From Rhodobacteraceae bacterium F11138 (lineage in GTDB: Bacteria; Pseudomonadota; Alphaproteobacteria; Rhodobacterales; Rhodobacteraceae), in the NCBI GenBank assembly GCA_016521575.1, contig JAEKDP010000016.1, positions 1-53,263 of the forward strand: DNA of 53,263 nt. The letters run 5' to 3'. The notes under the pieces were generated by a model. The model was not told the DNA's origin. It ran no database searches and was given only the letters and a program-made list of their open reading frames with translations. How positions within the stretch are numbered: the first letter of the stretch is position 1; each line of letters begins with the position of its first letter. Position numbers and translations under genes: made by a program. Below are positions 663-14,966 of this stretch, one piece after another.

Positions 663-1115
663 TCAGCTCAGCTCCACTCCCTCCATCTCGCCTTTGAAGC
701 TCTCAAAGAATTGGTTTGCCATCTTTTTGGCAAATCCATCAATGATACGCGAGCCAAGCTGAGCGATCTTACCTCCGATCTTTGCCTCTACCACGTAGAC
801 AAGTTCGCAGCCGTCGGGATGATCCGCCAGCGTAATGGTGGCTGTTCCCTTGGCAAATCCGGCCGCACCGCCCTTGCCCTCTCCAATAAGCCGAAGGGAA
901 CGTCCTGGAACCACGTCTACGACGGTGACCGCGCCTCTGAATTTTGCTTTCACCGGCCCAACTTTCTGAACGACGACAGCCTCGAAACCCTCGTCCGGCG
1001 ACCCGGTAACATCTTGCGCCCCGGAAATGCAGGCCTTCAACATTTCCGGTGTCAGGATTGCCTCGAATACAGCGTCGCGCGGGGCCGCGATAATTTGGCT
1101 GTCTTGCATCTCCAT
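663..1115 (-). CDS. coxG: CoxG-like SRPBCC protein, molybdenum hydroxylase accessory
   Basis: This 150-residue protein belongs to the carbon monoxide dehydrogenase subunit G (CoxG) family of START/SRPBCC fold proteins. It starts with a strand containing IIAAPRDAVFEAI, then the typical LKACISGAQDV segment and the C-terminal helix GFAKKMANQFFESFKGEME. CoxG proteins are membrane-associated factors needed for maturation or membrane recruitment of molybdenum hydroxylases; they are not catalytic subunits. It lies 25 bp downstream of the large subunit on the same strand, as the last intact gene of the operon. It lacks the long C-terminal hydrophobic anchor of some CoxG proteins. Family assignment is firm; the client enzyme is inferred from adjacency. 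Confidence 0.85.
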   Translation of the reverse strand: MEMQDSQIIAAPRDAVFEAILTPEMLKACISGAQDVTGSPDEGFEAVVVQKVGPVKAKFRGAVTVVDVVPGRSLRLIGEGKGGAAGFAKGTATITLADHPDGCELVYVVEAKIGGKIAQLGSRIIDGFAKKMANQFFESFKGEMEGVELS

Positions 1116-1140
1116 GGGTGAACTTCCTGTGTTTAGATAC

Positions 1141-3510
1141 TTATTCGAGGTTCTCTGCGGCCATTACGGCCTCAAGAATGCGGCGGGTAGTGAACGGTTG
1201 CTTTGCCACGCGCGCAGCAAGCGGCGACAAGGCATCATTGATCGCCGTGCGCACGGCTCCTGGCGCACCTACTGTCCCAGCTTCACCCACCCCCTTCGCG
1301 CCAAGGCCGGACGCGCGGGTTGGAGTTGTGATATGGTCGACGTGGATAGCCGGCATTTCGCCCGCCATTGGCACCACGTAATCTGCGAGTGTCCCATTGG
1401 TGAATTGGCCATCCTCGGAATACACACACTCTTCGTAGAGCGCCGCACCGATGCCCTGCACGATCCCGCCACGCAGCTGTTCGTCAACCAGAAGCGGGTT
1501 CACGACCGTGCCGCAATCATCCACCACCCAGTAATCAAGCAATTCAACGGTGCCGAGTTCGGAATCGACCTCGAGATGCACGGCGTGAACGCCATTGCTG
1601 GTGATGTAAGGCAAATTCAAGGGAAGGAAGCTTTCCTCGATCGTCATTGGCGGCACTTGCCCAGTCGGGATATCATACGGTCGATAGTGGCACAGCGCGC
1701 CCATCTCAGCGAGCGTCAGGCCAGAGGGACCCTTTAGCCCGATGATCTCGCCGTTGTCGAACGCCAGCGCGCTTGGTTCGCATTGGAGAACCCCGGCCGC
1801 TACCTCAAAAAGCCCGTCGCGCATACGCACGCAGGCGCGCCTTGCTGCCTCCCCGCCAAGAGCCATCCCACGTGACGCCCAGGCGCCGCCACCATAGGGA
1901 GTACGCCCTGTGTCGCCAGAGATCATCCGGACCATGTTCGGTGCGATATCGAATTCACCTGCGATCAATTGACCGAGTGCGGAAAGCGTCCCTTGTCCCT
2001 GATCCGTTACGCTGGTCGCGCAGGTCAGGCTTCCGTCGGGCTGCAAAGTCAGGCGACACGACTCGTTTGCGGCGAGCGGCAGACCGAGAGGTCCATAGAG
2101 TCCTGCTCCGACGCCTGTGAGTTCGACGAAACTGGCAAATCCGATCCCACGATAGATACCGTTTTCTCTTAGCGCCGCCTGTCCGGCTCTGAGCGTCTTG
2201 TAATCCATCGCTTCCATCAGCTTGGCGAGGCAGGCGTCAAGCGAAAGCTCTTCGATCACAAGCCCGGACTGGGTTGCACGAGTTCCTTCGTCCAGTGTGC
2301 TGCGATAGTTAATGCGGCGCATTTCAGCCGGGTCAATTCCTACTGCCCGTGCTGCAAGATCAATCATGTCTTCAGTAATGGCGCAGGCGATGGGTTGGCC
2401 GACACCACGATACGCACCGCTCGGGGCCTTGTTTTGGCGCCATCCGCGCACCTCGGCCCGGAAGGCACCCACTTTGTAGGGGGCGCCGATCATCTGGGCA
2501 GCCTGCATTGCTTCGCCGAAACTGCCACGTGGATGCATGGCATAGGCACCAAACCCGGAATCGACCACCGCGTCTATACCAAGGATGTGCCCCTCGGAAT
2601 CCACCGCCATCCGGCATGTAGCCTTGGCTTCACGCGCATGTGCGTCAGAGGTGAAAGATTCCAGCCGGTCCACGATGTATTTTATTGGCCTGCCCAACCG
2701 CTTTGACACCGCCACCGCCGCGAGTTCGTCCGCGTATGCATGCAGCTTCAGACCAAAAGCACCCCCCACGTCGGGAGCCACTACGCGTATGGATTGCGGC
2801 GACAGCCCTAATTGAGCGGCATAGACCTCTCGCATTTGCCAAGGCACCTGGTGTGATTGCCAAACCTCGAGTTCCTCGGCGCGAGGATCCCAATGCGCTA
2901 TGATCCCGCGCGGTTCCAGAGTCACCCCTGTCTGGCGGCCAAAAGCGAAACTCTCCTCGACCACATGAGCCGCGTTTTCGAAGGCGTCTGATACATCCTC
3001 GGCTCCGAACCGGTGGTGAAGCGAGAGGTTGTTGTCGAAACTACTATGAACCGCCGCTGCACTGTCGGACTGTGCCTCCGCGATAGAACACGCAGCCGGT
3101 AGCTCTTCCCAGTCCACGAACACCAACTCGGCCGCATCTTCGGCCGCGGCCCGGCTCTCGGCAACCACGGCGACCACGGTCTCGCCTTGGAAACAGCTTT
3201 CTTCGATCGCCAATGGTGGCTGAGGCGCCGAAGCATGGCCTGGCACTCCGGGCGGATTGGTGTCGAATGGCGCGCAGATCTCTGCCAGTTCTTTGCCGTC
3301 AATTGCGGCGACAACCCCGGGCATCTGAAGCGCATCTGCAGTTTCGATACACAGGATACGCCCATGAGCGAACGGCGCGCGCACGAACGCGATATGAAGC
3401 ATGCCTGGCAGCGCTATGTCGTCGACGTAACTGCCCCGCCCTTCGACCAGAAGGCGTGCGCTTTCGCGTGGCATCGGCGCGCCGACAGCTTTTGAAACCA
3501 GCTTATTCAT
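1141..3510 (-). CDS. Molybdenum hydroxylase large (Mo-pterin) subunit, CoxL/XdhB-like
   Basis: This is a 789-residue xanthine-oxidase-family molybdopterin subunit. It begins with the aldehyde oxidase a/b hammerhead (SARLLVEGRGSYVDDI, residues 17-32), then EPRG (199-202), GGAFG (249-253), AYRGVGQP (366-373), the QGQGT segment and the catalytic-glutamate motif GVGEAG (Glu743). The active-site loop is AYRG, not the AYxCSFR of true CO dehydrogenase, so no Cys can bind copper: this is a hydroxylase of an organic substrate. The start ATG at 3510 overlaps the small-subunit stop by 8 bp; an open frame extends further upstream but lies inside the small subunit. Order M-S-L-G matches cox-type operons. 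Substrate unknown; an N-heterocycle or aldehyde is typical for the family. Confidence 0.93.
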   Translation of the reverse strand: MNKLVSKAVGAPMPRESARLLVEGRGSYVDDIALPGMLHIAFVRAPFAHGRILCIETADALQMPGVVAAIDGKELAEICAPFDTNPPGVPGHASAPQPPLAIEESCFQGETVVAVVAESRAAAEDAAELVFVDWEELPAACSIAEAQSDSAAAVHSSFDNNLSLHHRFGAEDVSDAFENAAHVVEESFAFGRQTGVTLEPRGIIAHWDPRAEELEVWQSHQVPWQMREVYAAQLGLSPQSIRVVAPDVGGAFGLKLHAYADELAAVAVSKRLGRPIKYIVDRLESFTSDAHAREAKATCRMAVDSEGHILGIDAVVDSGFGAYAMHPRGSFGEAMQAAQMIGAPYKVGAFRAEVRGWRQNKAPSGAYRGVGQPIACAITEDMIDLAARAVGIDPAEMRRINYRSTLDEGTRATQSGLVIEELSLDACLAKLMEAMDYKTLRAGQAALRENGIYRGIGFASFVELTGVGAGLYGPLGLPLAANESCRLTLQPDGSLTCATSVTDQGQGTLSALGQLIAGEFDIAPNMVRMISGDTGRTPYGGGAWASRGMALGGEAARRACVRMRDGLFEVAAGVLQCEPSALAFDNGEIIGLKGPSGLTLAEMGALCHYRPYDIPTGQVPPMTIEESFLPLNLPYITSNGVHAVHLEVDSELGTVELLDYWVVDDCGTVVNPLLVDEQLRGGIVQGIGAALYEECVYSEDGQFTNGTLADYVVPMAGEMPAIHVDHITTPTRASGLGAKGVGEAGTVGAPGAVRTAINDALSPLAARVAKQPFTTRRILEAVMAAENLE

Positions 3511-3988
3511 CGGCCATCTCGCGCAAGGTTTCAGCAGCATCTGAAATCGCCTCAACGATGGCTTGATAACCTGTACAGCGGCAAAGATTGCCCGAAATCG
3601 CATCACGGATTTCTTCGCGGCGCGGTGCCGTATTGCCGGCCAGCAACTCTCGTGCGGTCATGATCATCCCGGGCGTGCAATAGCCGCATTGGAAGGCATT
3701 TCGGGCCACGAACGCATTCTGTAGGGCGGCTACATCGTGGTCGCTCCCCAGATGCTCGATCGTTTCGATCTCTGCCCCATCTACTTGTACGGCAAGTGTC
3801 AGGCAGGAACGCACCACGACCCCATCCATGACGACGTTGCAGGCGCCACAGACCCCATGCTCGCACCCTATGTGCGTACCGGTTTCACCAAATTCATGAC
3901 GCAATAGATCGCCGAGATGTCCCCGTGTCGTGGCAGGAACCGAGACATCTCGCCCGTTGAGGGTGAAACGGATTGTATCCTCAGACAT
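3503..3988 (-). CDS. Molybdenum hydroxylase small subunit, 2x[2Fe-2S]
   Basis: This 161-residue CoxS-type subunit passes electrons from the Mo site to FAD. The N-terminal plant-type ferredoxin domain has CEHGVCGAC and a later Cys (RSCLTL). The C-terminal helical domain has CGYCTPGM and CRCTGY, so all eight cluster ligands are present. The true start is ATG 3988 (MSEDTIRF); residues readable upstream belong to the FAD-subunit gene in another frame. It overlaps the FAD subunit by 8 bp upstream and the large subunit by 8 bp downstream, which implies translational coupling. Length is standard for the family. Confidence 0.95.
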   Translation of the reverse strand: MSEDTIRFTLNGRDVSVPATTRGHLGDLLRHEFGETGTHIGCEHGVCGACNVVMDGVVVRSCLTLAVQVDGAEIETIEHLGSDHDVAALQNAFVARNAFQCGYCTPGMIMTARELLAGNTAPRREEIRDAISGNLCRCTGYQAIVEAISDAAETLREMADE

Positions 3989-4844
3989 CGGCAAACTCCA
4001 TTGCAGCGTGCAGGCAGCGTTCGGCCAGCGCACGATATTGTCGGCGGCGCATCTGCGGTGTCGCGAGCGGACTTTCCATCGGATGGACTTGGTCTGCGAC
4101 GGCTTGGGACAGATCGGTGATGAGACCCGGGTTGGGCGCTTTGCCCAAAGCGATATCAGCCACGTTTTCCAGCAAAAGAGGCGCGGGTTCGGATCCAAAA
4201 GCGACGAGATCAAAGGCTGCGATGACGCCGCTGTCGACATGGATCTGACCGGCAAGGCCAAGCGTCGCGAAATCGCCCCGGCGCGCAGCCACTTCGTCGA
4301 ACACCGGGCGCGCGCCTTTGGGTGCGACGGGAAAACGCGCCTCGATCAGCATTTCATGCGGTGCGCGTTGGGTCTCATAGAGCCCTTCAAAAAATTCGCG
4401 CGCAGCCACCTCGCGAGTTCCGTCCGTGCTGGCAAGGACAAGGGTAGCGCCAAGCGCCACAGCACATGCTGGCATTTCCGCCGCCGGATCACCATAGGCC
4501 AGGCTCCCACAAGTCGTCCCGCGATTCCGGATCGCCGGATGAGCAACATGAGGCAACGCCTTGCCAATCAGCGGCAGGGCCTTGGTCGCTTCGTCGCTGG
4601 CCATGAGTTGGGCATGACGCACAAGCGGTCCAATGCGAACTTCGTCATCTCCGATCTCGATTTGGTCGAGACCCGGCACATGGTTGATGTCCACCACGAG
4701 TTCAGGCACCTGCAGCCGCAAATTGAGTGCAGCAACCAGACTTTGACCACCTGCGAGAACGATGGCGTCCTCTGTATTCGCGAGCGTGCTCAGTGCGTGA
4801 TCAAGAGACGTGGCCCGTATGTAGGCAAAGTTCGCGCTTTTCAT
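3981..4844 (-). CDS. Molybdenum hydroxylase FAD-binding medium subunit, CoxM-like
   Basis: This 287-residue subunit has the two FAD motifs of the molybdopterin dehydrogenase FAD-binding family: AGGQSL near residue 32 and IRNRGTTCGSLAYGDPAAE near residue 105. A CO-dehydrogenase flavoprotein C-terminal domain follows. It transfers electrons from the 2Fe-2S subunit to the final acceptor. It lies 12 bp downstream of the TRAP permease dctM and overlaps the small subunit by 8 bp, so uptake and hydroxylation genes are co-transcribed. Length and motifs are complete. Confidence 0.94.
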   Translation of the reverse strand: MKSANFAYIRATSLDHALSTLANTEDAIVLAGGQSLVAALNLRLQVPELVVDINHVPGLDQIEIGDDEVRIGPLVRHAQLMASDEATKALPLIGKALPHVAHPAIRNRGTTCGSLAYGDPAAEMPACAVALGATLVLASTDGTREVAAREFFEGLYETQRAPHEMLIEARFPVAPKGARPVFDEVAARRGDFATLGLAGQIHVDSGVIAAFDLVAFGSEPAPLLLENVADIALGKAPNPGLITDLSQAVADQVHPMESPLATPQMRRRQYRALAERCLHAAMEFADV

Positions 4845-4856: not shown

Positions 4857-6179
4857 TCAGCGGATCAATTCGGGCAGCCAACTCACCGTGCCCGGCAGGA
4901 ATAGTATGAGCGCAAGCACCGCGAATTCGAGGAGCAAGAACGGAATAACGGCCCTGTAGATTGTGGTCATGGCGAGTGGTCTGTCAGCCACGCTCTGCAT
5001 CAGAAAAAGAAGGAGCCCGAAAGGCGGCGTCGTCAAGCTGATCTCCAGCGCGATCAGCATGAGAACACCGAACCAAACTGGATCCACCCCGATGGTGACG
5101 ACGATGGGCATGAAAATCGGCAGGGTCAGCATCATCATTGACACTTGGTCCATGAAGCAGCCGAGAAAGATCAGGATCGCCAGCATGAAGATCACCAGCA
5201 TCGTGTTCGATACGTTTGCGCTGGTGACAATTGACGACATCTCTTGCGTTGCGCCTGAGAAGGCAAGGATCTGTGAAAATGTACCGGAGGTGCAGATAAT
5301 GAGCAGGATCATGGCACTAAACTTGAGCGTCTCGCTCACCGACAGGATCATCGCCTTGATCGACAGCGCGCGATAGGCCGCTGCGGCGACCAGCGTGGCC
5401 AGGACACCGAGTGCCGCGCTTTCGGTTGGTGTGGCGATGCCCATGAACATTGATCCGACAACCACCACGAACACGCCTATAAGCGGCACGACATGGGTAA
5501 AGATCGGCAGAATTCGCTCCCTAAGACTCAGGACCGGCCCATCATACCGTGGCGCGATCTCCGGATTGCTGAGGCAGCGCGCAATGATGTAGGCCAGAAA
5601 CAACACGGCCATTATCGCTCCGGGCACGATCGCCGCGATCAGCAAGTCATTGATCGAAATCCGCGCGAGCGAGCCAAGCAGAACGCCAAGACCAGAGGGC
5701 GGTATCAACATGGCGATTCCGCCGACCGCAAGGATCGGACCGATCGAGATACTCGTGGAATATCCACGGTCGCTCATTTGCGGGAATAGCGTGCGTCCCA
5801 GTACTGCCGCGTTGGCCAGCGTAGAGCCCGATAAAGACGAGAATACGGTGCCGCCCAGAACCGCAACGATCGACAAGCGACCGGGCACTTTACTAATCAG
5901 ACGGTCGATGGCGTCGATGGATTTCTGCGCCATTCCTGTCTGCAACATGATCTCGCCCATCAAGACAAACAGCGGAATTGGTACCAGAGAGTATTGCCCT
6001 GCGGTCGAACGCATGCTGCGCACCATCTGGGTAAGCCCCATGTCGCCGCCCAGGAAAATCAATGCTCCGATGATATTTACGGCGAGAAACGAAAACATCA
6101 CCGGCACGCTCAGCAACAGCAAGATCAGGACGCTGCCGAACATCAGCGAAATTACAAAAATCCACTCAGGCATTGTCAT
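4857..6179 (-). CDS. dctM: TRAP transporter large permease (DctM), first system
   Basis: A very hydrophobic protein of about 440 residues with roughly a dozen membrane spans and DctM family landmarks: PIPLFVLMGEIM, the SSLSGSTLANAAVLG segment, and MLIPPSG. It is the channel-forming subunit of a tripartite ATP-independent periplasmic transporter, which imports organic acids with sodium. Two in-frame ATGs (6179 and 6173) follow an AGGAG; either is plausible and both overlap the dctQ stop. No dctP gene is adjacent. The likely binding protein is the dctP at 15033, which shares the predicted GntR operator. The substrate is probably that of the surrounding oxygenase operon (inference). Confidence 0.92.
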   Translation of the reverse strand: MTMPEWIFVISLMFGSVLILLLLSVPVMFSFLAVNIIGALIFLGGDMGLTQMVRSMRSTAGQYSLVPIPLFVLMGEIMLQTGMAQKSIDAIDRLISKVPGRLSIVAVLGGTVFSSLSGSTLANAAVLGRTLFPQMSDRGYSTSISIGPILAVGGIAMLIPPSGLGVLLGSLARISINDLLIAAIVPGAIMAVLFLAYIIARCLSNPEIAPRYDGPVLSLRERILPIFTHVVPLIGVFVVVVGSMFMGIATPTESAALGVLATLVAAAAYRALSIKAMILSVSETLKFSAMILLIICTSGTFSQILAFSGATQEMSSIVTSANVSNTMLVIFMLAILIFLGCFMDQVSMMMLTLPIFMPIVVTIGVDPVWFGVLMLIALEISLTTPPFGLLLFLMQSVADRPLAMTTIYRAVIPFLLLEFAVLALILFLPGTVSWLPELIR

Positions 6180-6678
6180 GAGCTCCTGTAAGGGCTGCAC
6201 GGTGGGCGGGCGAGCCGAGTGCCAACCAGATCCGGCGCGAAAATTCGATCACGAGCAATGCGAGCGCGAGCGGGACTTGCCACTGCAGCATCCATTCGCT
6301 CACCACCACATCGTCGAAGAGGAATCTTCCATGCTGGTAAGACTGAACCAGAACATCGAACGCGTAGCGAAGCGTGACAGCCGTCGCCACCAGACCGATC
6401 ACATCCGTAAGAAGCAAAACCCGCGCCCGTGCGCGTCGGCCGAGCGAGTCAAGAACGATCGTTACCCTCAGATGGCCATCGTTATACAACAGCCAGGGTG
6501 CGGCGAGCATCGCCAGGCTGAAAATAGCGTATTCCGAGAATTGCACGCTGCCGCGAATCGAGCCGAAATTGAATAGTCGCAGGATCGCTTCGGCGCCGAT
6601 CACGACAACAAGAAACACCAGCAATAGCCCGGCAACAATCGCAAGACTCAGCAAAATTACTTTGTAAATTCGTCCCAT
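6166..6678 (-). CDS. dctQ: TRAP transporter small permease (DctQ), first system
   Basis: This 170-residue membrane protein has four predicted hydrophobic segments and DctQ features (RLFNFGSIRGSVQFSEYAIF, then RVTIVLDSLGRRAR). DctQ bridges the binding protein and DctM. An ATG at 6678 with AAGG five bases upstream, and a GTG at 6684 with GGAGG nine bases upstream, compete as starts; the protein differs by two residues. Its end overlaps the start of dctM. It follows the asparaginase-like gene after a 60-bp gap, the widest in this part of the operon, so a weak internal promoter is possible there. Confidence 0.88.
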   Translation of the reverse strand: MGRIYKVILLSLAIVAGLLLVFLVVVIGAEAILRLFNFGSIRGSVQFSEYAIFSLAMLAAPWLLYNDGHLRVTIVLDSLGRRARARVLLLTDVIGLVATAVTLRYAFDVLVQSYQHGRFLFDDVVVSEWMLQWQVPLALALLVIEFSRRIWLALGSPAHRAALTGAHDNA

Positions 6679-6742
6679 GGGCACCTTGGCGAACCTCCGT
6701 AGCTGGCTAGTGTGGGGCCGTGTTCTATTGCTGAACCTTCAG

Positions 6743-7756
6743 TCAGGTCTTGCGCGGGGTGGGCGGAAGGCGCCCCCAAGTCTGGAGGAGGTCTTCTATT
6801 GCGTCGCGGTCTGAATTCGAAGCCAGTGCCAATAATACGAGGATGCGGGCCTTTTGAACGCTTAAACCACCGCCGCCCAAAATACCGTCTGCCCGGTTAT
6901 AAGGCTGAACCGGCACGCCGCCGCGCGTTGCACGGCTTGATTGGACGACAACGACGCCTGCTGCGACTGCTTCGAGCATGGCGGCACGGTCCCCCGGCGC
7001 GGCACGCCCCGGCGGCATCCCGGCGACGATGATCCCCTCTGCCCTGGCAGAGGTCAGGGCGCGGATAGCGGTCCCGTCAGAGCCGGCATAGGACAAGGCG
7101 ATGTCCACGCGGGGCACAGCGCCTGCTGGCAAATCCAGTACCTTAGGTGCCGGTATCGGTGCCCGGGCCATGAATAGACCTCCGTCTGCATCGACCCGCC
7201 CGAGTGGACCGAACTCCGGCGCTTCGAAGGCATCGAGCGCAAAGTTCGACGTTTTGGTCACGTCAGACGCCGCAAAGAGTTGACCATTCATACAGGCGTA
7301 GACACCAGCAGGTGCCTGCGTTGCGGCAGAAACCGCCGAACGCAGGTTTACCATCGCGTCGCTCGCGGCCGTGTTGGGCGGGCGTTGTGCGCCGGATAGA
7401 ATGACTGGCTTTGTTACGTGGCAGGTTGCTTCGATGAAGAACGCAGTCTCCTCCAGCGTGGCGGTCCCGTGAGTGATGACGACCCCCGCGATATTTGCCT
7501 GTGCGTCCAAAGCCATCACGACACCGGCAAGTTCGATCCAATCATCGACGGAAATTCCCGTCGATGGCAGCATGCGGAATGGCACCAGTTCAAGATCGAC
7601 ACCGTCAAGCCCGAGGTTCATACCCCTTACAATTTTGTCGACGGGATTGATCCGACCAGTGTCCCCATAGTCGACCCAATCGAAAGGGTGCGCACCCTCC
7701 ATCGCAATGGTGCCTCCTGCGCCAACTACGGCTACGCGGCAACCTGCAGCGCTCAT
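6743..7756 (-). CDS. L-asparaginase-family hydrolase with altered active site
   Basis: A 337-residue member of the asparaginase/glutaminase family. GGTIA (Thr16) supplies the usual nucleophile, and HGTATLEETAFF (residues 96-107) and DVTKT (Lys168) supply the second catalytic set. In type II asparaginases the second motif is HGTDT, and its Asp contacts the substrate alpha-amino group. Here that Asp is Ala99, and the preceding SQ substrate pair reads ST (residues 66-67). The Thr-Lys machinery is therefore kept while amino-acid recognition looks lost. No signal peptide is present, so it acts in the cytoplasm. Its ATG overlaps the Rieske ferredoxin stop (ATGA). I infer an amidase acting on a pathway intermediate rather than free asparagine. 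Confidence 0.85.
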   Translation of the reverse strand: MSAAGCRVAVVGAGGTIAMEGAHPFDWVDYGDTGRINPVDKIVRGMNLGLDGVDLELVPFRMLPSTGISVDDWIELAGVVMALDAQANIAGVVITHGTATLEETAFFIEATCHVTKPVILSGAQRPPNTAASDAMVNLRSAVSAATQAPAGVYACMNGQLFAASDVTKTSNFALDAFEAPEFGPLGRVDADGGLFMARAPIPAPKVLDLPAGAVPRVDIALSYAGSDGTAIRALTSARAEGIIVAGMPPGRAAPGDRAAMLEAVAAGVVVVQSSRATRGGVPVQPYNRADGILGGGGLSVQKARILVLLALASNSDRDAIEDLLQTWGRLPPTPRKT

Positions 7757-8070
7757 AGCTGTACCTGCACTTGTCCGTTCTCGACGCGCACAGAGTAGCT
7801 TTTCACCGGTTTCTCGACGGGTTCACCGCAGGCCTCGCCATTGCGGTAGTCGAACAAACCACCATGGAGCGGGCATTCCAGAACGCAGTCTTCCGTATCG
7901 CAATAGCCTTCGGACAGAAATGCTCGGCCATGGGTACACAGGTCATCGACGCAATAGTAGGACCCTGCATCATTGACGAGGCACAGGCGCGCGCCATCAA
8001 TTTCGAAAGCACGCGCTTCTCCATCAGGTAAATCGCCTTCTGCGCAGAGCGTAGACCAGCTTGTGCTCAT
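7753..8070 (-). CDS. Rieske [2Fe-2S] ferredoxin, oxygenase component
   Basis: A 105-residue Rieske ferredoxin of the bacterial aromatic-dioxygenase type. Cys45-x-His47 (CTHG) and Cys66-x2-His69 (CPLHGG) are the cluster ligands. It lacks a second domain, so it is a soluble electron carrier between the reductase (13749) and the oxygenase (11451). The start at 8070 is chosen because AAGGA lies eight bases upstream; an ATG at 8085 has no good ribosome site. It sits 18 bp after the PyrD-like gene and overlaps the asparaginase-like gene by 4 bp. Confidence 0.93.
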   Translation of the reverse strand: MSTSWSTLCAEGDLPDGEARAFEIDGARLCLVNDAGSYYCVDDLCTHGRAFLSEGYCDTEDCVLECPLHGGLFDYRNGEACGEPVEKPVKSYSVRVENGQVQVQL

Positions 8071-8088
8071 TAATTCATCCTTCATATT

Positions 8089-9033
8089 TCACAAAGCGAC
8101 CGCGTCGCGCTGTTCGGACTTCTGATCGACGGGCAATTGTAGCGCCCCGGTCAGCTCCGCCACGCGGGCGATGTTCTTTCGTGTGCAATAGTCCGCGACC
8201 CAGTCGATGCTTTGTTCCATCGCGGCCGTGTGGACGAAATTCATGGTGCCGATTTGAACTGCAGCGGCACCTGCCAACATGTATTCGATGATGTCCTCAC
8301 CAGTCGAAATGCCGCCGCAACCGATGACGGGGATCTTCACCGCTTCCGCACATTGGTTGACCATTCGCAGGATCACCGGCTTTACTGCGGGGCCTGTCAG
8401 GCCGCCAACCACGTTGCCAAGTCGCGGCATCATGGTTTCCGCATTGATGGCCATCCCTAGGATTGCGTTCGCCGTGACGACCGCATCGGCGCCCGCATCT
8501 TCAACCGCGCGGGCAATTTCGGCGATATCACCCACGTTCGGCGTGAGTTTGGCCCAGACCGGCAGATGCGTATTGCCCTTCATTGCTTTGATGACTTCAG
8601 CCGCAGCAACCGGGTCCATTCCGAAAGCACGCCCATGCGCGCGCAGATTCGGGCATGAGATATTGGCCTCGATCGCCGCGATACGCGGATCGCTGATGTA
8701 TTTTGCGAGATTGCCAAAATCCTCGGCCGTATCGGCAGAGATGCTAGCAATCACGGGTGGACCGAACCGAGCAAAAAACGGCACTGTGTGGTTGAGAAGA
8801 TAGTCAGGACCCTTGCTGGGGATGCCAATCGAAAACAAGGTCGCATCGGTATACTCGACCACACGGGGCGGCTTTACGCCCTGTCGGATGTCCGGCGTAA
8901 TGGTTTTAAGCACGATAGCCCCGAGCTTCCCGAGATCAACCACATCGGCTATGCCTTCGGCGATAGAACCGGACGCAGGCATGATCGGGTTTGCCATGCG
9001 CACACCGCCAACGGTAACGGAAAGATCTACCAT
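8089..9033 (-). CDS. PyrD-like (class 1 dihydroorotate dehydrogenase family) flavoprotein
   Basis: A 314-residue FMN TIM-barrel protein of the class 1B DHOD / PreA type. Seen are NISCPN (124-129) with the active-site Cys127, Lys162 in WAKLTPN, TANAILGMAIN, and the phosphate-binding GCGGISTGEDIIEYMLAGA segment. The loop that in DHODs reads like IGLxNxG, whose Asn binds orotate, is IGIPSKG here, so orotate is unlikely to be the substrate. The start ATG 9033 overlaps the PyrK-like stop by 7 bp. Inside a Rieske oxygenase operon it may oxidise or reduce a ring double bond of a catabolic intermediate, for example re-aromatising a dihydro compound. That role is inference; the fold assignment is firm. 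Confidence 0.87.
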   Translation of the reverse strand: MVDLSVTVGGVRMANPIMPASGSIAEGIADVVDLGKLGAIVLKTITPDIRQGVKPPRVVEYTDATLFSIGIPSKGPDYLLNHTVPFFARFGPPVIASISADTAEDFGNLAKYISDPRIAAIEANISCPNLRAHGRAFGMDPVAAAEVIKAMKGNTHLPVWAKLTPNVGDIAEIARAVEDAGADAVVTANAILGMAINAETMMPRLGNVVGGLTGPAVKPVILRMVNQCAEAVKIPVIGCGGISTGEDIIEYMLAGAAAVQIGTMNFVHTAAMEQSIDWVADYCTRKNIARVAELTGALQLPVDQKSEQRDAVAL

Positions 9034-9872
9034 GTCGTCACCTCGTTGACCCCGAAAACCGGACCGTCGTAACAGACCCGTTTCATTTCTTCTTTTCCTT
9101 CGGCGTCGCGCACCGGAACCACGCAGGCAAAACACATGCCCAGTCCGCAGCCCATGAATGCTTCGACGGCGACCTGACCCGGAATGTTCCATTCGGAACA
9201 AAGCTCGCGTGTCAGGCTCAGTAGACGATTTGACCCACAGGTCGCCATGAAATCGATCGGCGTCTTCTCGTGGATGTCACGAAGGCGGTTCGTTACGTCC
9301 TGCGGCGATGAATTGCCAGCGACATCGTTCACCTCGATGACAGCTGCTCCAGCTGCCTCGAGTTCATCCCGGGACATAAGAAACTCTGGCGCGCGCGCTG
9401 AGAGGATTGCGGTGATCTTCGCACCGTTTACGGTAGCCATCCGCGCCAGGGGGGCGAGCGTTGCCAGCCCCACGCCGCGCGCGATCATGGCAACATGTCT
9501 GGTGCCTTCTGGAATGCTGAACCCGACACCCAGCGGGCCGGTCGCATTCAACTCATCCCCTGGTGCGAGCGACGCGAGAGCACAGGTGCCTTTCCCGGTT
9601 ACTTTGTACAGAAACCCGAGCTGGCCATTCTCGCGATCAATTCGATAGATGCTCATCGGGCGACGCAAGAATGGCTGTTCGGTCGCAGTTGCCGGACAAA
9701 GAAGGTGGAAAAACTGGCCTGCATAGGCCGAAAGCCCGGTCTCAGGTGCATTCACGACCATGAGCCGGTATTCGGAATTCATCGGTTCATTGGACGCCAC
9801 CAGGCATCGGTTTTCTGCGCGCGGGAAGCAACCTGACGGCCCCTCCACCTTGGCGGTGGCAGTCAAAGTCAT
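9027..9872 (-). CDS. PyrK-like FAD/[2Fe-2S] electron-transfer subunit
   Basis: A 281-residue ferredoxin-reductase-like protein of the PyrK family. FAD motif RPMSIY is at 71-76, an NAD-binding Rossmann segment with ARGVGLATLAPL near 132-143, and the PyrK-specific C-terminal cluster has Cys242, Cys247, Cys250 and Cys267 (CGLGMCFAC...C). In class 1B DHODs PyrK couples the FMN subunit to NAD+. Its tight coupling to the PyrD-like gene (7-bp overlap) predicts a PyrD2K2-like NAD-dependent complex. It overlaps the SnoaL-like gene by 4 bp upstream. Confidence 0.9.
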   Translation of the reverse strand: MTLTATAKVEGPSGCFPRAENRCLVASNEPMNSEYRLMVVNAPETGLSAYAGQFFHLLCPATATEQPFLRRPMSIYRIDRENGQLGFLYKVTGKGTCALASLAPGDELNATGPLGVGFSIPEGTRHVAMIARGVGLATLAPLARMATVNGAKITAILSARAPEFLMSRDELEAAGAAVIEVNDVAGNSSPQDVTNRLRDIHEKTPIDFMATCGSNRLLSLTRELCSEWNIPGQVAVEAFMGCGLGMCFACVVPVRDAEGKEEMKRVCYDGPVFGVNEVTTW

Positions 9873-10399
9873 GCTGCTTGTCCTTTCTTCGGTATTAGGC
9901 AGGTGACTGCGTTGCGACTGTCCGCGAGCTCGATCTCCTGCAACACTTCGAAATTCATCGAAGTGATGCGCCAGCCCTCCGAGGTGCGTCGGCAGATTTG
10001 CTCGACAACCCCGCTCAGAAGGACCACGCGTTCATCGGCTTGGGGACATCCTATTTCGATCAAGCGCCAGCGCACCTCTGCGGTATCGCCGTCAACGGCG
10101 ATTTCAGGACACACGTAGTGGTGTAACGCGTAGCTCCATGGGCTGGACTCGAAGAACTTTGCGATTGCTGCGCGGCCGGTCAACACGCCCCCGAACTGCC
10201 CGGCACTCCAGGCTGCATCTTCAGCGAAACAAGCGGCTTGTTCGGCAGCAGCTTGCGAGACCGCTTCGGGGTCCCGCAGGTTTAGATCCGGCGTGTATTT
10301 GGCATCCGCCGCCCGAGCATAGCGCTGCATGAGATCGCGAATTTCTTCGCGATGCTCAATGGCCGCGATTCGGCCAGATAGATCGGCCGCACCACTCAT
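9869..10399 (-). CDS. SnoaL/NTF2-fold protein, possible oxygenase partner
   Basis: A 176-residue protein with the SnoaL-like (NTF2) pattern: an N-terminal helix EHREEIRDLMQRYARAAD, a middle segment FGGVLTGRAAIAKFFES, then ALHHYVCPEIAVDGDTAEVRWRL. NTF2-fold proteins include small subunits of ring-hydroxylating oxygenases as well as dehydratases and isomerases. Length and its place in a Rieske operon would allow a beta-subunit role, but the sequence looks more like stand-alone SnoaL proteins. The start ATG 10399 overlaps the upstream cupin stop (ATGA). An upstream extension of the open frame lies within that cupin gene and is not used. Confidence 0.75.
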   Translation of the reverse strand: MSGAADLSGRIAAIEHREEIRDLMQRYARAADAKYTPDLNLRDPEAVSQAAAEQAACFAEDAAWSAGQFGGVLTGRAAIAKFFESSPWSYALHHYVCPEIAVDGDTAEVRWRLIEIGCPQADERVVLLSGVVEQICRRTSEGWRITSMNFEVLQEIELADSRNAVTCLIPKKGQAA

Positions 10400-10674
10400 T
10401 TCAGCGTGACTCGATAAAGCAGCGCGGGTGTCTCGAAATTCCACGAGCGCAGGCTGGAATTGGGGATCAGAACGCCCTGCCCTTTGGACAGATCGAACAC
10501 CTCGCCGTCGCACGTCAGCCGCCCATTTCCTTCAATGACCGCAACCAGCTCTTCGCCAGCCGTATGCGCCTCGATCGGGTCCGTGACCCAGCGCATGTCG
10601 ACGGCAAGTTCGTCGCCGGTCACATGAAAGGGCGTCTTGGCCATATTGGTCTGATAGGTTTCACATTCGCTCAT
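10396..10674 (-). CDS. Small cupin-domain protein
   Basis: A 92-residue single cupin barrel. Motif 1 is reduced to AHTAGEELVAVIEGNGRLTC and motif 2 is GQGVLIPNSSLRSW. Only one His (His37) is seen in the expected metal-binding set, with two Glu in AGEELVAVIEG, so metal binding and catalysis are uncertain. It overlaps the next cupin gene by 4 bp on each side (ATGA junctions). The pair of unlike cupins could form a heteromeric dioxygenase, isomerase or ligand-sensing protein. No specific function is recognised. Confidence 0.72.
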   Translation of the reverse strand: MSECETYQTNMAKTPFHVTGDELAVDMRWVTDPIEAHTAGEELVAVIEGNGRLTCDGEVFDLSKGQGVLIPNSSLRSWNFETPALLYRVTLK

Positions 10675-11084
10675 GGCTTGTCCCCCGTCGGGTAATAGAC
10701 TTTGGCCTCACCCGACTTGCCGTATTCGGCGCGTGGCGGCGTGACCACATTGAGACGTAGGCACATGCCAGCACCATCAAAGCGGTTGACCCCTGAATGA
10801 TAGCGGTCGGCGGGCATGATCATGACTACACCCTCCTCAAGTTCCACCGATCCTTCGGGCGCATCCACATCCACGCCCAGATTGACCGTACAGCCGCCGC
10901 GCAGCTGCAAAGTCGCTTCTTCACCATGGGCATGTGACTTGGCCGGGATGTCGCTGCCCTTCGCGGCACGGAAGTTCACCACCCCCACACTCAAGGCTTC
11001 ACCAACTACCGCCTGCATATAAAGCCCGTCCTCGACAACCTCGCGCAGATCGCTGTCAAAACTGAATACCTGACACTTTACCAT
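10671..11084 (-). CDS. Cupin-domain protein
   Basis: A 137-residue cupin. Metal-site residues fit the canonical pattern better than in its neighbour: KSHAHGEEATLQLRGG (two His and a Glu) in motif 1, and MIMPADRYHSGVNRFDG (a His) in motif 2. A dioxygenase, lactone or keto-enol isomerase, or sugar-type binding role would all fit. It is 7 bp downstream of the unknown 115-residue gene and overlaps the smaller cupin by 4 bp, so it is part of the same transcript as the Rieske oxygenase. Confidence 0.78.
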   Translation of the reverse strand: MVKCQVFSFDSDLREVVEDGLYMQAVVGEALSVGVVNFRAAKGSDIPAKSHAHGEEATLQLRGGCTVNLGVDVDAPEGSVELEEGVVMIMPADRYHSGVNRFDGAGMCLRLNVVTPPRAEYGKSGEAKVYYPTGDKP

Positions 11085-11091
11085 GCCAGCC

Positions 11092-11439
11092 TCACAGCGC
11101 CGGACGGAGCGGATGACGCTCCTCGGCTACGAAAAGTTTGGAATCGTAGCCGTGAACCACCTCGACTTCGGGGTCATAGCTTTCGATGGCAGGCGCCACC
11201 TCAGCCAAGGACATGAGCATATAGAAAAGATTCAGAGTCGGCTGATCCAAGTCACCTTCAGCCTGCTCTGCGTCGATATGCGCGCAGATCGCTTCGATAT
11301 GCGGCTCCAGTGCCGATGCGAAGGCCGAAATGTCCTCGAAGCTACTCGCCACTCGGCGCGCATTCCGTTCGGTTTCAGTGGCAAGGCACCATGTGCCCCA
11401 AACCGAAAGCTCTGCGAATTCACTGGGAAGCTCTGTCAT
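11092..11439 (-). CDS. Unknown 115-residue protein in Rieske oxygenase operon
   Basis: I do not recognise a family. The protein is acidic, mostly alpha-helical by appearance (SSFEDISAFASALEPHIEAICAHIDAEQAE), and ends with VEVVHGYDSKLFVAEERHP. No signal peptide, membrane span or metal motif is seen. It lies 11 bp downstream of the oxygenase alpha subunit and 7 bp upstream of the cupin, so it is certainly in the operon. Codon use resembles its neighbours. A specificity or assembly partner of the oxygenase is a guess from position only. Confidence 0.7.
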   Translation of the reverse strand: MTELPSEFAELSVWGTWCLATETERNARRVASSFEDISAFASALEPHIEAICAHIDAEQAEGDLDQPTLNLFYMLMSLAEVAPAIESYDPEVEVVHGYDSKLFVAEERHPLRPAL

Positions 11440-11450: not shown

Positions 11451-12746
11451 TTATTCCGCAGCATGCGCTGCCGCTTCGGCGGCGATGCCAGCTTCGACGA
11501 TTTTGTCGACAACCACGGCCTGATGACGCACCATCAATTCGAAGTCGTTGATCACCATTTCGGTTTTGGCGCCGGTATTGGCGGCTTCCTGCGTCATTTC
11601 CAGCGTGGCCAGGTCTTCCAGCAACACGTCACGCAATGTGACTTTCATGTATTCCTGATAGAAACGCCCCCCCGCGGTCTTCATTTCGGGGTAGTACACC
11701 CGGGCCTCAAACAGCGTCTTGTCGTGGGAAATCGGACGGAAATTATACGCCTGGAAATAGTTGGGGCGGCACGAAAGATAAAAGTCCGGAAAGACGACGT
11801 TGATATCGAAGGCCCAGTGCGGATGCTTGGTCCAGTTCAACGCCTCAGGCAGCGTCACCTCTGACAGATCAATCTTGGTGCCCCCTGCACCGGCGGCAAG
11901 TGCCTTGGCCGCGATCCGCTTGCCGATGTCGGCGCTACCCGAAACAGAACTTTGCGTCAGACCGCTGGTGGCGGCCTGCGGGTTGCCATAAACCGTGTTC
12001 GGATTCCCGGCAATCGACAAGCGGCGATGCACGTCGCCACACAAACCATCGATTGGGTGTAGCATTCCCTCCTCGTTCTTCTCGAGGGAATCTGCGATCG
12101 AGCGACCATGTAGATAGGCGACGTGATAGGTTTCCTGAAAGGCGTCGAGCGCGAACTTCCAGTTCGCATCGATCACCGTCGACCAACCATAGCACGCGGT
12201 GAATTTCTCGAAAGGATAGCCCTCAAGCCCGCCATACATTGGCTCCATGAATTCTGCCAATGTCTGCACCGGCTCAAGATCCATATTGATGAAAATGAAG
12301 CCCTGCCAAACATCGCACGAGACCTTGGCGAGACCGTGACAGGCCTTGTCAAATCCTTCCATGAAGGATCTTTCATCCGGCACACCCGAGAGCGAGCCAT
12401 CAAGATCATATGCCCAGCCGTGGAACCTACAGGCGAATTTGCGTGTCGTACCGTATGGCTGATAGGCAATCTTGTTCAGACGATGCGAGCAAACGTTGTG
12501 AAAGGCGTTGATTTCGCCCGAGCGATCTCGGGCGATGACGATCGAAGCATCGAGCGCCGCAATGTCACGCACCATGTAAGAGCCCTTTTTCGGCAGCTCT
12601 TCCACGCGACCGATGTGGAGCCACGTTTTCTTGAATAGGTGCTTTTTCTCAGCTTCCCAATACGCAGGGTCGATGTAGGGGCCGACGGGCAAGTTGCCCG
12701 TCCCCAATTCGGGGTAGCGATCGTGAAGCCTTGCCTTTTCTGTCAT
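11451..12746 (-). CDS. Rieske non-heme iron oxygenase, alpha subunit
   Basis: A 431-residue ring-hydroxylating oxygenase large subunit. The N-terminal Rieske domain has Cys86-x-His88 (CSHR) and Cys106-x2-His109 (CRFHGW). The catalytic domain has ETYHVAYLH, giving iron ligands His208 and His213, with Glu205 in the bridging position and Asp379 in LLEDLATLE as the third ligand. The start has AGGAGG five bases upstream. It is the first gene of the long minus-strand operon, and a 21-bp palindrome lies 16 bp upstream of its start. It needs the ferredoxin at 7753 and the reductase at 13749, so the system looks three-component. Substrate unknown; benzoate-, phthalate- or heterocycle-type acids are plausible. 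Confidence 0.95.
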   Translation of the reverse strand: MTEKARLHDRYPELGTGNLPVGPYIDPAYWEAEKKHLFKKTWLHIGRVEELPKKGSYMVRDIAALDASIVIARDRSGEINAFHNVCSHRLNKIAYQPYGTTRKFACRFHGWAYDLDGSLSGVPDERSFMEGFDKACHGLAKVSCDVWQGFIFINMDLEPVQTLAEFMEPMYGGLEGYPFEKFTACYGWSTVIDANWKFALDAFQETYHVAYLHGRSIADSLEKNEEGMLHPIDGLCGDVHRRLSIAGNPNTVYGNPQAATSGLTQSSVSGSADIGKRIAAKALAAGAGGTKIDLSEVTLPEALNWTKHPHWAFDINVVFPDFYLSCRPNYFQAYNFRPISHDKTLFEARVYYPEMKTAGGRFYQEYMKVTLRDVLLEDLATLEMTQEAANTGAKTEMVINDFELMVRHQAVVVDKIVEAGIAAEAAAHAAE

Positions 12747-12920: not shown

Positions 12921-13574
12921 ATGACGAAACCCATTGTCCGAGCCGTTGATCTACGCCAACAGGTCTACGAGAATCTGCGGCGACGCATTACCAGCGGCGA
13001 ATTTGATAAAAACACTCGCTTTTACGAACGAACCTTCGCTGACGAATTGGGCGTCTCAAGAACCCCTGTACGAGAGGCGCTGGCCATGCTTGAGCAGGAT
13101 GGCCTCTTGTCGCAGGCTGCACGCGGCTACCGCCTGCCCCGGATGTCGCGTCAGCAAGTGATTGATGTGACCGAGATCCGACTCCTGCTGGAGCCGCATG
13201 CGATCCGCTCTATGGTGCAGGAAACGCAGCCAGCGAAGCTGGCAAAGATCGCCGATGGTATCCGCAAGGAGGTAGAGGCCAGTCGCGACAGCGATGCCTA
13301 TATTGCAGCGCACGGCCGCATGCGCGAAGTCATTCTGAGTGAGGTAAAAAACCGCTCTCTCGTTGATGCGATCCAGCAATACGAGGATTCCATTCATTTC
13401 GTCCGAATCAGCACGCTCGGCCGACCGGACTGGCGGCGTCTATCCTCCGACGGGATGCTTGATCTCGCGGACGCGCTCGAAACCGGGGACTCCGATCGGG
13501 CGGCCGAACTGCAGTTTACGCTCCTCACCAAGGCACGGGATTCGTTCCTTGAGTTCAGCGAGTCTGAAACCTGA
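12921..13574 (+). CDS. GntR-family regulator (FCD domain)
   Basis: A 217-residue transcription factor. The N-terminal winged helix spans about residues 9-75 (LRQQVYENLRRRITSGEF ... ELGVSRTPVREALAMLEQDGLL), followed by the all-helical FCD ligand-binding domain (EIRLLLEPHAIRSMV ... His residues at HGRM and IHFVR). FCD regulators sense organic acids and often use a metal ion. A GAGAGGA ribosome site precedes ATG 12921. It is transcribed between two copies of the GTATACCGTATAC palindrome and is the natural candidate to bind all three. Derepression by a pathway acid is the expected mode (inference). Confidence 0.92.
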   Translation: MTKPIVRAVDLRQQVYENLRRRITSGEFDKNTRFYERTFADELGVSRTPVREALAMLEQDGLLSQAARGYRLPRMSRQQVIDVTEIRLLLEPHAIRSMVQETQPAKLAKIADGIRKEVEASRDSDAYIAAHGRMREVILSEVKNRSLVDAIQQYEDSIHFVRISTLGRPDWRRLSSDGMLDLADALETGDSDRAAELQFTLLTKARDSFLEFSESET

Positions 13575-13721: not shown

Positions 13722-13748
13722 AAAGTGTAACGAATCGGAGACCGCCCC

Positions 13749-14966
13749 ATGGTCCACGTACAGCGCCCGATCTTGATTGTTGGGGCCGGACAGGCCGGAG
13801 CGCGCAGCCTTCGCGCATTGATCGACGAGGGCGTCACCGCACCCATTATCCTTGCTGGAGACGAGCCGCACGAACCTTATGATCGCCCGCCGCTCAGCAA
13901 GGATTTGCTGAAAGCCTTCAACCCGAAGAATGCCGACCCGCTATGCCCGGCAGAAGTGCTGGCGGCCCCGAATGTCGAGATAAAACTAGGCGACCCGGTC
14001 ACCGCAATTGATTACGAAGCTCGTGTCGCGACCACCGCGGCGGGCGAAACCATTGACTTCGGTTCTCTGATAATCGCCACAGGTGGCCGATCACGGGCAC
14101 TCCCCGTGCCGGGTGGAGATCTATGCATCGGACTACGCAACATGGACGATTGCGCGCGCTTGTCGCAGGAACTCGACACAGCCAAACGTATCGTGGTCAT
14201 CGGCGGGGGCGTCATCGGGTTGGAAGTGGCCGACGCGGCCCGGGCGCGTGGTATCGACGTCACCGTTCTCGAAGCCGGGCCGCGTGTCATGGGGCGCATT
14301 CTGCCGCCGACTGCATCGCACTGGCTGGCCAAGCGCCACCAGGCAAACGGCACCGATATTCGAACCGGTATTACCGTGAACAGAATCGACAAGATCGACG
14401 CCCACTATGCGGTTGAAACTGATCAGGGACTCTTCGAAGCCGACATTGTCCTTGCGGCAATTGGCATGACGCCAAATACCGAAATCGCCCCAACAGACGC
14501 GCTTGGTCCCGGAGGTGGCATCCTGACTGATACCAGCGGCAGGATTGCTGGATACGACAACCTGTATGCAGCAGGAGATGTAGCCGAAAGTTTCAATCCG
14601 CATTTTGGCGCGCATCTGCGACTTGAGACCTGGCGCAACGCAGATCGTCAGCCACAGGCCATCGCGCGCACTATCGCGGGCAATCCAGCAGAATATGCCG
14701 AAATTCCATGGATGTGGACGGACCAATTGGGTCACAATCTTCAAGTCGTCGGTTTTTGGACCGACACCAGCGAAGAAGTGCCCCGTGGCGTGCCCGGAGA
14801 ACACGGTTCCAGCCTGTTCTGGACTTGCGACGGCGTGATCAAAGGCGGCGTGCTGTTTGACAACGGGCGCGATCGACGTTTCCTCGAAACGCTCGTGCAG
14901 AATAAGGCCGTTGTGCCCACAGAAAGCCTGGCAGATCCCGAGCTTCGCCTGAAAAAGCTTGCCTGA
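13749..14966 (+). CDS. FAD-dependent ferredoxin reductase of the oxygenase system
   Basis: A 405-residue NADH:ferredoxin reductase of the BenC-independent, glutathione-reductase-fold type (BphA4/ThcD-like). GAGQAGARS (12-20) binds FAD, YDRPPLSK is the diagnostic segment, VVIGGGVIGLEVAD binds NAD, and YAAGDVAE closes the FAD site. A reductase C-terminal domain follows (WSWT-like segment PWMWTDQLGHNLQVVG). It should reduce the Rieske ferredoxin at 7753. It is preceded by operator site 2 and followed after 66 bp by dctP, on the plus strand. Confidence 0.93.
   Translation: MVHVQRPILIVGAGQAGARSLRALIDEGVTAPIILAGDEPHEPYDRPPLSKDLLKAFNPKNADPLCPAEVLAAPNVEIKLGDPVTAIDYEARVATTAAGETIDFGSLIIATGGRSRALPVPGGDLCIGLRNMDDCARLSQELDTAKRIVVIGGGVIGLEVADAARARGIDVTVLEAGPRVMGRILPPTASHWLAKRHQANGTDIRTGITVNRIDKIDAHYAVETDQGLFEADIVLAAIGMTPNTEIAPTDALGPGGGILTDTSGRIAGYDNLYAAGDVAESFNPHFGAHLRLETWRNADRQPQAIARTIAGNPAEYAEIPWMWTDQLGHNLQVVGFWTDTSEEVPRGVPGEHGSSLFWTCDGVIKGGVLFDNGRDRRFLETLVQNKAVVPTESLADPELRLKKLA

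Follow-up and report, generated by a model that had tools for sequence, protein, structure and literature searches.

We describe an operon of fifteen genes from Rhodobacteraceae bacterium F11138, encoded on the minus strand from position 12746 to position 663 of the window, by which we mean the whole 53,263-nucleotide stretch analyzed (contig JAEKDP010000016.1, positions 1 to 53,263). We class it as an N-heteroaromatic catabolic operon. The reading we favor, with a probability of roughly 0.4, is that its products cut catechol from a benzo-fused lactam: a molybdenum (Mo) hydroxylase would form the lactam, a PyrDK-like flavoenzyme would reduce its C=C bond, a Rieske system would excise the catechol, and an asparaginase-like enzyme would hydrolyze the small amide released. 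We observe the gene set and that it recurs, along with the changed residues and the family relations; from these we infer the substrate, the order of steps and each reaction. Quinoline-4-carboxylate, giving catechol and succinamate, is the favored but unproven substrate, as judged from the protein sequences. The families involved are known; the combination of genes, and two enzymes in their changed form, appear undescribed.

Gene content and recurrence of the operon

Listed from 12746 to 663, the genes are as follows.

11451..12746, minus strand: Rieske oxygenase alpha subunit (Pfam Rieske and Ring_hydroxyl_A)
11092..11439, minus strand: u115, a helical protein of 115 amino acids (no Pfam match), the partner gene of this Rieske alpha clade
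10671..11084, minus strand: cupin 1, with His51, His53, Glu56 and His96 conserved (metal-type motif)
10396..10674, minus strand: cupin 2, less conserved (Pfam Cupin_2)
9869..10405, minus strand: SnoaL/NTF2-fold protein (Pfam SnoaL_4), with Asp34 and His95 conserved
9027..9872, minus strand: PyrK-like electron-transfer subunit, FAD and 2Fe-2S (Pfam DHODB_Fe-S_bind)
8089..9036, minus strand: PyrD-like flavoenzyme with Asn67 changed to Phe, a proposed lactam C=C reductase (alignment, tree)
7753..8085, minus strand: Rieske-type ferredoxin (Pfam Rieske)
6743..7756, minus strand: asparaginase-like amidohydrolase without Asp90, a proposed succinamate (desamino-asparagine) amidase (Pfam Asparaginase; residues)
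6166..6684, minus strand: TRAP small permease (47% to the annotated TRAP small permease of locus L014)
4857..6200, minus strand: TRAP large permease (67% to the annotated TRAP large permease of L014)
3981..4844, minus strand: Mo hydroxylase FAD subunit, M (Pfam FAD_binding_5)
3503..3988, minus strand: Mo hydroxylase 2Fe-2S subunit, S (Pfam Fer2_2)
1141..3510, minus strand: Mo hydroxylase large subunit, L (nearest solved relative, quinoline 2-oxidoreductase)
663..1115, minus strand: CoxG-like accessory protein (Pfam COXG)

Successive intergenic gaps are 11, 7, -4, -10, -4, -10, 3, -4, 58, -35, 12, -8, -8 and 25 bases. The only gaps above 12 bases are the 58 between the asparaginase-like and TRAP genes and the 25 ahead of CoxG, all others being 12 or less, or overlaps. 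Given these small gaps, the genes from the Rieske alpha subunit through the asparaginase-like enzyme form a single tight block, with the transporter/Mo hydroxylase block 58 bases on. For the Mo hydroxylase L and S subunits, PyrD and SnoaL, the mechanically called starts of the open reading frames (ORFs) are too early; better limits for L and S are those listed above. Every gene named in a preliminary description of this DNA is present; the TRAP permeases were identified by similarity to the annotated TRAP genes of plasmid locus L014 and not by Pfam. The same set recurs in other genera, which argues that the arrangement is not due to chance.

Recurrence was assessed with a five-row profile of the Rieske alpha subunit and one genome per species, which gave 78 loci in two bands of identity, 56–95% and at most 43%. 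Locus counts cover the best 80 of 545 confirmed scan candidates plus two plasmid loci. The close set (n = 29) consists of the 27 upper-band loci and plasmid loci L014 and L020, and the distant set has 51 members; the window copy and operon locus L005 stand outside the 29. Presence of a gene means a protein marker match at 40% coverage inside the fetched stretch, with genes past the flanks counted as absent. The close loci are partly non-independent: L034 and L096 lie in one genome, and L030 and L092 are almost identical.

These marker searches found u115, cupin 1, SnoaL and the ferredoxin reductase in 29 of the 29 close loci, the ferredoxin and the asparaginase-like gene each in 28, and both PyrK and PyrD in 25. 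Cupin 2 was found in 18 and Mo hydroxylase subunits in 6. Among the distant loci, PyrK, PyrD, asparaginase, ferredoxin, reductase and cupin 1 each gave no match (0/51), and u115 and SnoaL were matched in 38/51 and 4/51, respectively. Co-occurrence of the PyrK-PyrD pair with this Rieske alpha subunit, which the preliminary description had offered as a check on its proposal and whose lack it would have counted against it, is thus seen in 25/29 close loci. A plasmid of Paroceanicella profunda has the block from Rieske alpha to asparaginase in identical order, surrounded by genes for a Mo hydroxylase, GntR, DctP and a reductase. PyrK-like genes occur in 10 of 394 genomes of a sample of the family; the host and one other genome have the operon type, and eight have an orotate type.

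Hosts of the close set include Paracoccaceae, Burkholderiaceae, Oxalobacteraceae and sphingomonad families, plus Azospirillum, a spread that suggests horizontal transfer of the operon. The gene set is common to marine and soil bacteria, and it is real and tightly coupled. Of the four close loci scored without PyrDK, L038 stops within PyrK at a contig edge, and L020, L040 and L044 lack the pair. L020, from Azospirillum ramasamyi, retains a short PyrD remnant at 18999-19289, annotated 'hypothetical', between SnoaL and the ferredoxin. PyrDK seems to have decayed in this organism while the Rieske/asparaginase core persisted.

Active sites of the PyrD-like and asparaginase-like enzymes

PyrD scores 317.8 bits against the NCBIfam model for dihydroorotate dehydrogenase (DHODH), whose cut-off is 269, and PyrK exceeds the Pfam DHODB_Fe-S_bind cut-off. 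In a midpoint-rooted tree with a long outgroup branch and bootstrap values not fully settled, 26 operon PyrD rows group as a single clade (support 100/96) that adjoins the PyrDs of orotate clusters. In 28 of 28 operon rows, including that of the window itself (L004), the loop reads TLFSIGIPSKG and a later motif reads NA; all 13 orotate-cluster rows have Asn in place of the loop Phe and NT in place of NA. Counted from the printed alignment, the Phe aligns with Asn67 of L. lactis PyrDA. Thus, neither the orotate-binding Asn67 nor the hydroxyl residue after Asn193/194 is kept in any of the 28 operon rows, which have Phe and Ala. The catalytic Cys in NxSCPN and the equivalents of Lys43 and Asn194 are kept in the window PyrD and in the aligned operon rows.

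T. cruzi DHODH, as described in PMC4427443, has Asn67 contacting N1-H and C2=O of orotate, Asn194 contacting N3-H and C4=O, and Lys43 contacting the carboxylate. With Asn67 lost and the Lys, the Asn194-type Asn and the Cys kept, the operon pocket would fit the edge NH-CO-CH=C(COOH) of a ligand and not the opposite polar edge. The altered edge of the pocket is precisely the one that a benzo ring would occupy, so 2-oxo-1,2-dihydroquinoline-4-carboxylate would fit. This compound shares the NH-CO-CH=C(COOH) edge with orotate and is our candidate for the PyrD ligand, although a pyridone acid would fit too.

A close comparison is with clusters for reductive orotate catabolism (L015-L019). These contain a PyrK-PyrD pair of the same family (39–51% identity to the window's PyrK, 48–51% to its PyrD) and, in some cases, TRAP transporters. 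They differ from the operon in keeping the orotate-binding Asn, in lacking Rieske, cupin and asparaginase genes, and in using a hydrolase from another family. The PyrK relatives compared, on plasmids and within the family, adjoin a Zn-dependent hydrolase and some also a dihydroorotase; a Zn-hydrolase of the orotate-catabolism type is found in 13/13 comparison loci, whereas a marker search found no match for it beside PyrDK in the operon loci listed. Among plasmid records, 97 have a PyrK-like match, 53 of them from Klebsiella; the one examined (L019) carries PyrDK, a Zn-hydrolase, a dihydroorotase and an MFS transporter, i.e. the orotate-catabolism set. The host has a separate class-2 PyrD (371 bits against a cut-off of 200), which makes the operon PyrDK unnecessary for biosynthesis. 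The preliminary description had PyrDK shifting a ring double bond. Reduction of a lactam C=C bond is more likely, as the closest relatives of this pair belong to clusters for the reductive catabolism of orotate.

The second altered enzyme is the asparaginase-like protein, which has Pfam Asparaginase domains above cut-off and falls short of the model for type II L-asparaginase (TIGR00520, 173.2 against 314.3 bits). As the preliminary description had noted, it is altered: THGTA stands in place of the THGTD motif in all 29 operon rows, Ala having replaced Asp90, and both reference asparaginases have Asp. The Thr12, Ser58, Thr89 and Lys162 positions are kept, Gln59 is Thr or Val, and the stretch around Glu283 is shortened. 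Asp90 presumably contacts the ammonium group of the substrate, and enzymes of this fold hydrolyze small amides that carry a nearby free carboxylate. A substrate with a carboxylate and an amide and no amino group, for example succinamate, fits these residues. In published descriptions, Asp90 and Lys162 are invariant in L-asparaginases and Ser58 anchors the alpha-carboxylate (PMC6667453); Gln59 contacts the amino group, yet an active archaeal asparaginase has Thr there (PMC8470970). Since changes at Gln59 and Glu283 are found in genuine asparaginases, only the loss of Asp90 is telling.

The Rieske system and the Mo hydroxylase

The three components of a Rieske oxygenase are present: an alpha subunit with the Rieske motif and His-His-Asp site, a Rieske ferredoxin, and an FAD-containing reductase encoded divergently. 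An alignment of 84 rows shows Glu205, His208 and His213 of the alpha subunit at 97% conservation or more; Glu205 stands at what we take to be the usual position of the bridging Asp of Rieske oxygenases.

The gene u115 adjoins the Rieske alpha gene in 29/29 close loci, and among 61 near-relative genomes it was found in the host only. The protein has seven invariant residues and a confident helical model (predicted local distance difference test score, pLDDT, 88.9; predicted template modeling score, pTM, 0.80). Membership of a known family found no support: the window copy has no Pfam match, 65 members yield just three single weak matches, no solved relative is better than E 0.33, and the model has no fold match in the PDB at E ≤ 0.001. 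We propose that u115 serves this Rieske clade as a partner protein or an assembly factor.

The SnoaL model (pLDDT 93.5) matches the folds of SnoaL-like dehydratases and lyases, e.g. bile-acid dehydratase and LdpA, and Asp34 and His95 are invariant in the alignment. This protein may catalyze fragmentation following dioxygenation. As to a possible role as an ordinary Rieske beta subunit, there is no Pfam match to beta subunits; the 50 fold matches listed are dehydratase/isomerase-like enzymes of the SnoaL type, with no dioxygenase beta subunit among their names, and the top one, 3b8l, bears the title putative aromatic ring hydroxylase. In cupin 1, the His-x-His...Glu...His set is conserved across 30 rows of one alignment and 22 of a second.

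The three Mo hydroxylase subunits have the expected Mo, FAD and 2Fe-2S domains (Pfam). Among solved structures, quinoline 2-oxidoreductase (1t3q) matches the large subunit best, at 435 bits, followed by CoxL (400 bits). An aerobic CO dehydrogenase was rejected, with CoxL models scoring far under their cut-offs (TIGR02416, 413 against 991 bits; NF040766, 471 against 950 bits). In one Caballeronia genome (G426), which holds two copies of the core (L034 and L096), Mo hydroxylase genes accompany only one of them.

Proposed route and points against it

In the favored route, a carboxylated N-heteroaromatic would be taken up by the TRAP system, and the Mo hydroxylase would oxygenate it beside the ring nitrogen, for example converting quinoline-4-carboxylate to the lactam 2-oxo-1,2-dihydroquinoline-4-carboxylate. 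PyrDK would then reduce the lactam C=C bond with NADH, as its relatives reduce orotate. The Rieske alpha subunit, u115, ferredoxin and reductase, perhaps with SnoaL and cupin 1, would dioxygenate both ring-fusion carbons to yield catechol and the primary amide succinamate. What would make the dioxygenated product fragment is the carboxylate now borne by the carbon that departs from the benzene ring; this makes the cleavage chemically reasonable and reduction ahead of oxygenation sensible. Finally, the asparaginase-like enzyme, which lacks Asp90, would hydrolyze succinamate (asparagine minus its amino group) to succinate and ammonia, and the catechol would undergo intradiol cleavage. An amidase that opens an amide also figured in the preliminary description; the amidase-type role is retained, but it is more likely that the Rieske step comes first and frees a small primary amide for this enzyme than that the enzyme opens a ring amide beforehand.

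There is precedent for excising a catechol by attack at ring-fusion carbons. In riboflavin catabolism, according to PMC12746152, a xanthine-oxidase-type enzyme makes a quinoxaline dione, which a Rieske system dihydroxylates and opens to a catechol. The lum cluster for lumichrome in Nocardioides (LumJ and LumABCD, same source) resembles the operon in its Mo hydroxylase, lactam-type ring, four-part Rieske system that dihydroxylates the ring and opens it to a catechol, and subsequent ring-cleaving dioxygenase. It differs in that the released amide hydrolyzes non-enzymatically and cleavage is extradiol; PyrDK, an asparaginase-like enzyme, cupins and u115 go unmentioned in the available portion of the paper.

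Where a locus has no Mo hydroxylase or no PyrDK, the substrate would enter as a lactam or a saturated lactam. 2-Oxo-tetrahydroquinoline-4-carboxylate and oxindole-3-acetate are the two lactams of 2-(2-aminophenyl)succinate, and both would give catechol and succinamate, which would explain core-only loci such as that of Azospirillum. In its full form, the proposal is that a DHODH-family enzyme has turned into a reductase of benzo-lactams (2-quinolone-4-carboxylate) and an asparaginase into a succinamate amidase, letting a Rieske system with a new partner family, u115, excise intact catechol from the bicycle, and that in loci that have lost PyrDK this core acts on oxindole-3-acetate. This conjunction is tentative, and we consider it somewhat unlikely to hold in every part. 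Were it true, orotate chemistry and asparagine chemistry would have been recruited to dismantle bicyclic aromatics, a large Rieske clade would gain a partner protein family, and there would be a genetic marker for the breakdown of quinoline carboxylate or oxidized auxin in sea and soil. Because PyrD passes the curated DHODH model, annotation pipelines will call it a pyrimidine enzyme, even though none of the operon copies examined has an unaltered substrate pocket.

The catechol end of the route would draw on nearby genes. An intradiol dioxygenase gene (20042..20911), which scores below the NCBIfam cut-offs for the named catechol types, and a cycloisomerase gene lie near the window operon, and the close loci contain a catA-type gene in 5/29, a cycloisomerase in 4/29 and catC in 2/29. 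The link to an intradiol pathway made in the preliminary description is borne out to this extent. Two further intradiol matches occur elsewhere in the host genome.

Several observations weigh against this reading. In 24/29 close loci there is no catA-type gene inside the fetched stretch, and the host genome gave no match to muconolactone isomerase (PF02426), so the full classical catechol route is not demonstrated. Similarly, 23/29 close loci lack the Mo hydroxylase inside the fetched stretch. A search for the Mo large subunit in 21 close-locus genomes gave a match at 1e-100 in 18, of which only 5 were at 44–51% identity, the others being at 32–36%. With so few similar large subunits, the Mo hydroxylase is best regarded as accessory and not nearby in most members. 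The absence of PyrDK from L020, L040 and L044 indicates that the PyrDK step is dispensable for some substrates. As for the asparaginase-like enzyme, C. jejuni asparaginase lacks both Gln59 and Glu283 in the same alignment, so these two changes are not diagnostic, and the loss of Asp90 may reflect an altered catalytic mechanism too, and not a change of substrate alone. Lastly, cupin 1, cupin 2, u115 and SnoaL are four operon proteins without an assigned role.

Alternative routes and known systems

No characterized pathway matching the whole operon was found in the literature searched, from which subscription journals were largely absent, in line with the statement in the preliminary description that the set has no named pathway. 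The N-heteroaromatic catabolic role suggested in the preliminary description is supported.

The same core could act on an auxin. With indole-3-acetate or oxindole-3-acetate as the substrate, the Mo hydroxylase would yield oxindole-3-acetate, the Rieske system would release catechol and succinamate, and PyrDK would act on an unsaturated oxindole or in a side branch. The two products are identical to those of the quinoline carboxylate route, and Azospirillum has the core but neither PyrDK nor Mo hydroxylase. According to PMC7225977, the iac pathway, which starts from indole-3-acetate, likewise ends in catechol and includes a SnoaL protein, IacI. The iac and iad operons share with ours a Rieske-type oxygenase, attack on an indole-type ring and, for iac, the SnoaL protein. 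However, their first oxygenase is the flavoprotein IacA or IadDE, and neither PyrDK nor an asparaginase-like gene is reported in the available portions of the sources. No acyl-CoA-dehydrogenase-like domain of the IacA kind turned up in the 20 window proteins scanned. This route leaves PyrDK, present in 25/29 close loci, with no clear job, and we consider it unlikely.

Hydrolysis could also precede oxygenation. PyrDK would saturate the lactam, the asparaginase-like enzyme would open the ring amide, as dihydroorotase does after orotate reduction, and the Rieske system would dioxygenate the resulting 2-aminophenyl acid in the manner of anthranilate dioxygenase, giving ammonia and catechol. The order, reduction and then hydrolysis, is that of orotate catabolism, and the best scores of the ferredoxin and reductase are to anthranilate and phenylpropionate dioxygenase components, though below cut-offs. 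What makes this order quite unlikely is the asparaginase-like enzyme, which keeps Ser58 of the carboxylate site and has a fold suited to small amides with a carboxylate close by. In addition, a distant relative in Acinetobacter SH20PTE14 (L024) combines a Rieske alpha subunit of this clade with an acetamidase/formamidase-type gene, an arrangement that fits a small amide too.

The L024 cluster contains the Rieske alpha subunit, a hypothetical gene of the size of u115, an NTF2 protein, an indole/styrene monooxygenase, a flavin reductase, an SDR and a ferredoxin. Its gene spacing appears to match that of A. piscicola p38 genes 1684, 1687 and 1690, which skatole induces together with catA (PMC11434297); judged from this spacing, the two clusters may correspond. 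This skatole/indole group has in common with our operon a related Rieske alpha subunit (34–37% identity), a u115-like gene, an NTF2 protein, a ferredoxin and co-induced catechol genes. In the portion of that report available, a styrene/indole monooxygenase replaces the Mo hydroxylase, an acetamidase/formamidase-type gene replaces the asparaginase, and neither PyrDK nor cupins are found.

A third possibility is a single-ring substrate such as isonicotinate, which the Mo hydroxylase would convert to a pyridone for reduction by PyrDK, the asparaginase-like enzyme then hydrolyzing an open-chain acid amide. A pyridone carboxylate likewise has the NH-CO-CH=C(COOH) edge, and in Variovorax sp. WDL1 (L022) a distant Rieske alpha gene and u115 adjoin genes for a 2,5-dihydroxypyridine dioxygenase, an isochorismatase-family protein and a Mo hydroxylase, apparently a pyridine route. 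But the best solved match of the Mo large subunit is the quinoline enzyme, and the catechol-type genes near the operon in several lineages and the skatole-induced relatives would go unexplained; we regard a pyridine carboxylate route as improbable.

Orotate or pyrimidine catabolism, for which the DHODH score of PyrD speaks, and a function of PyrK solely as the Rieske reductase are very improbable: every operon row has Phe at Asn67, a marker search of the operon loci listed gave no Zn-hydrolase, the operon has its own ferredoxin reductase, and PyrD keeps the catalytic Cys. The PyrD residue pattern and the missing partner genes speak against plain pyrimidine/orotate breakdown. Catabolism of homarine or other betaines is not supported, no comparable operon having been found in the literature searched.

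Neighboring genes and other observations

The following genes flank the operon on the plus strand. The first three are divergent from it, and DctP lies just beyond the range 663-14966.

12921..13574, plus strand: GntR/FCD regulator, divergent (Pfam), present in 6/29 close loci
13749..14966, plus strand: ferredoxin reductase of the Rieske system (Pfam Pyr_redox_2 and Reductase_C)
15033..15992, plus strand: TRAP DctP solute-binding protein (Pfam DctP)
20042..20911, plus strand: intradiol (catechol 1,2-type) dioxygenase, a probable downstream step (Pfam Dioxygenase_N and _C)
21048..22178, plus strand: muconate/chloromuconate cycloisomerase, a probable downstream step (TIGR02534, 385 bits against a cut-off of 335)

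CoA transferase and alpha/beta hydrolase genes also lie past DctP, as does the intradiol/cycloisomerase pair. At the window edge, an amidohydrolase-like ORF (3-560, truncated) is found on the operon strand, 102 bases beyond CoxG. Several transposase-like ORFs, judged by eye, occupy the middle of the window at 37734-40520.

Ten of the 29 close loci (L033, L034, L037, L038, L040-L044 and L084) have, close to the operon, a gene from the arylmalonate decarboxylase / Asp-Glu racemase superfamily. It is perhaps a racemase acting on a chiral carbon of the substrate. Maleamate or maleate as the amide product was considered in this connection and is not supported: the best matches of the gene are EutA and arylmalonate decarboxylase (NCBIfam), both below cut-off, and the racemase role is equally possible. 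In 10 close loci, including L036, L045 and L047, a protein of ∼235 amino acids with a weak EthD-family match, just under cut-off, is encoded after or near the asparaginase gene. Metagenome-assembled genomes of Candidatus Binatia and related groups (L050-L052, L057-L059, L067, L097 and others) carry two or three Rieske alpha-u115 pairs per stretch, with no marker matches to ferredoxin, reductase or amidase.

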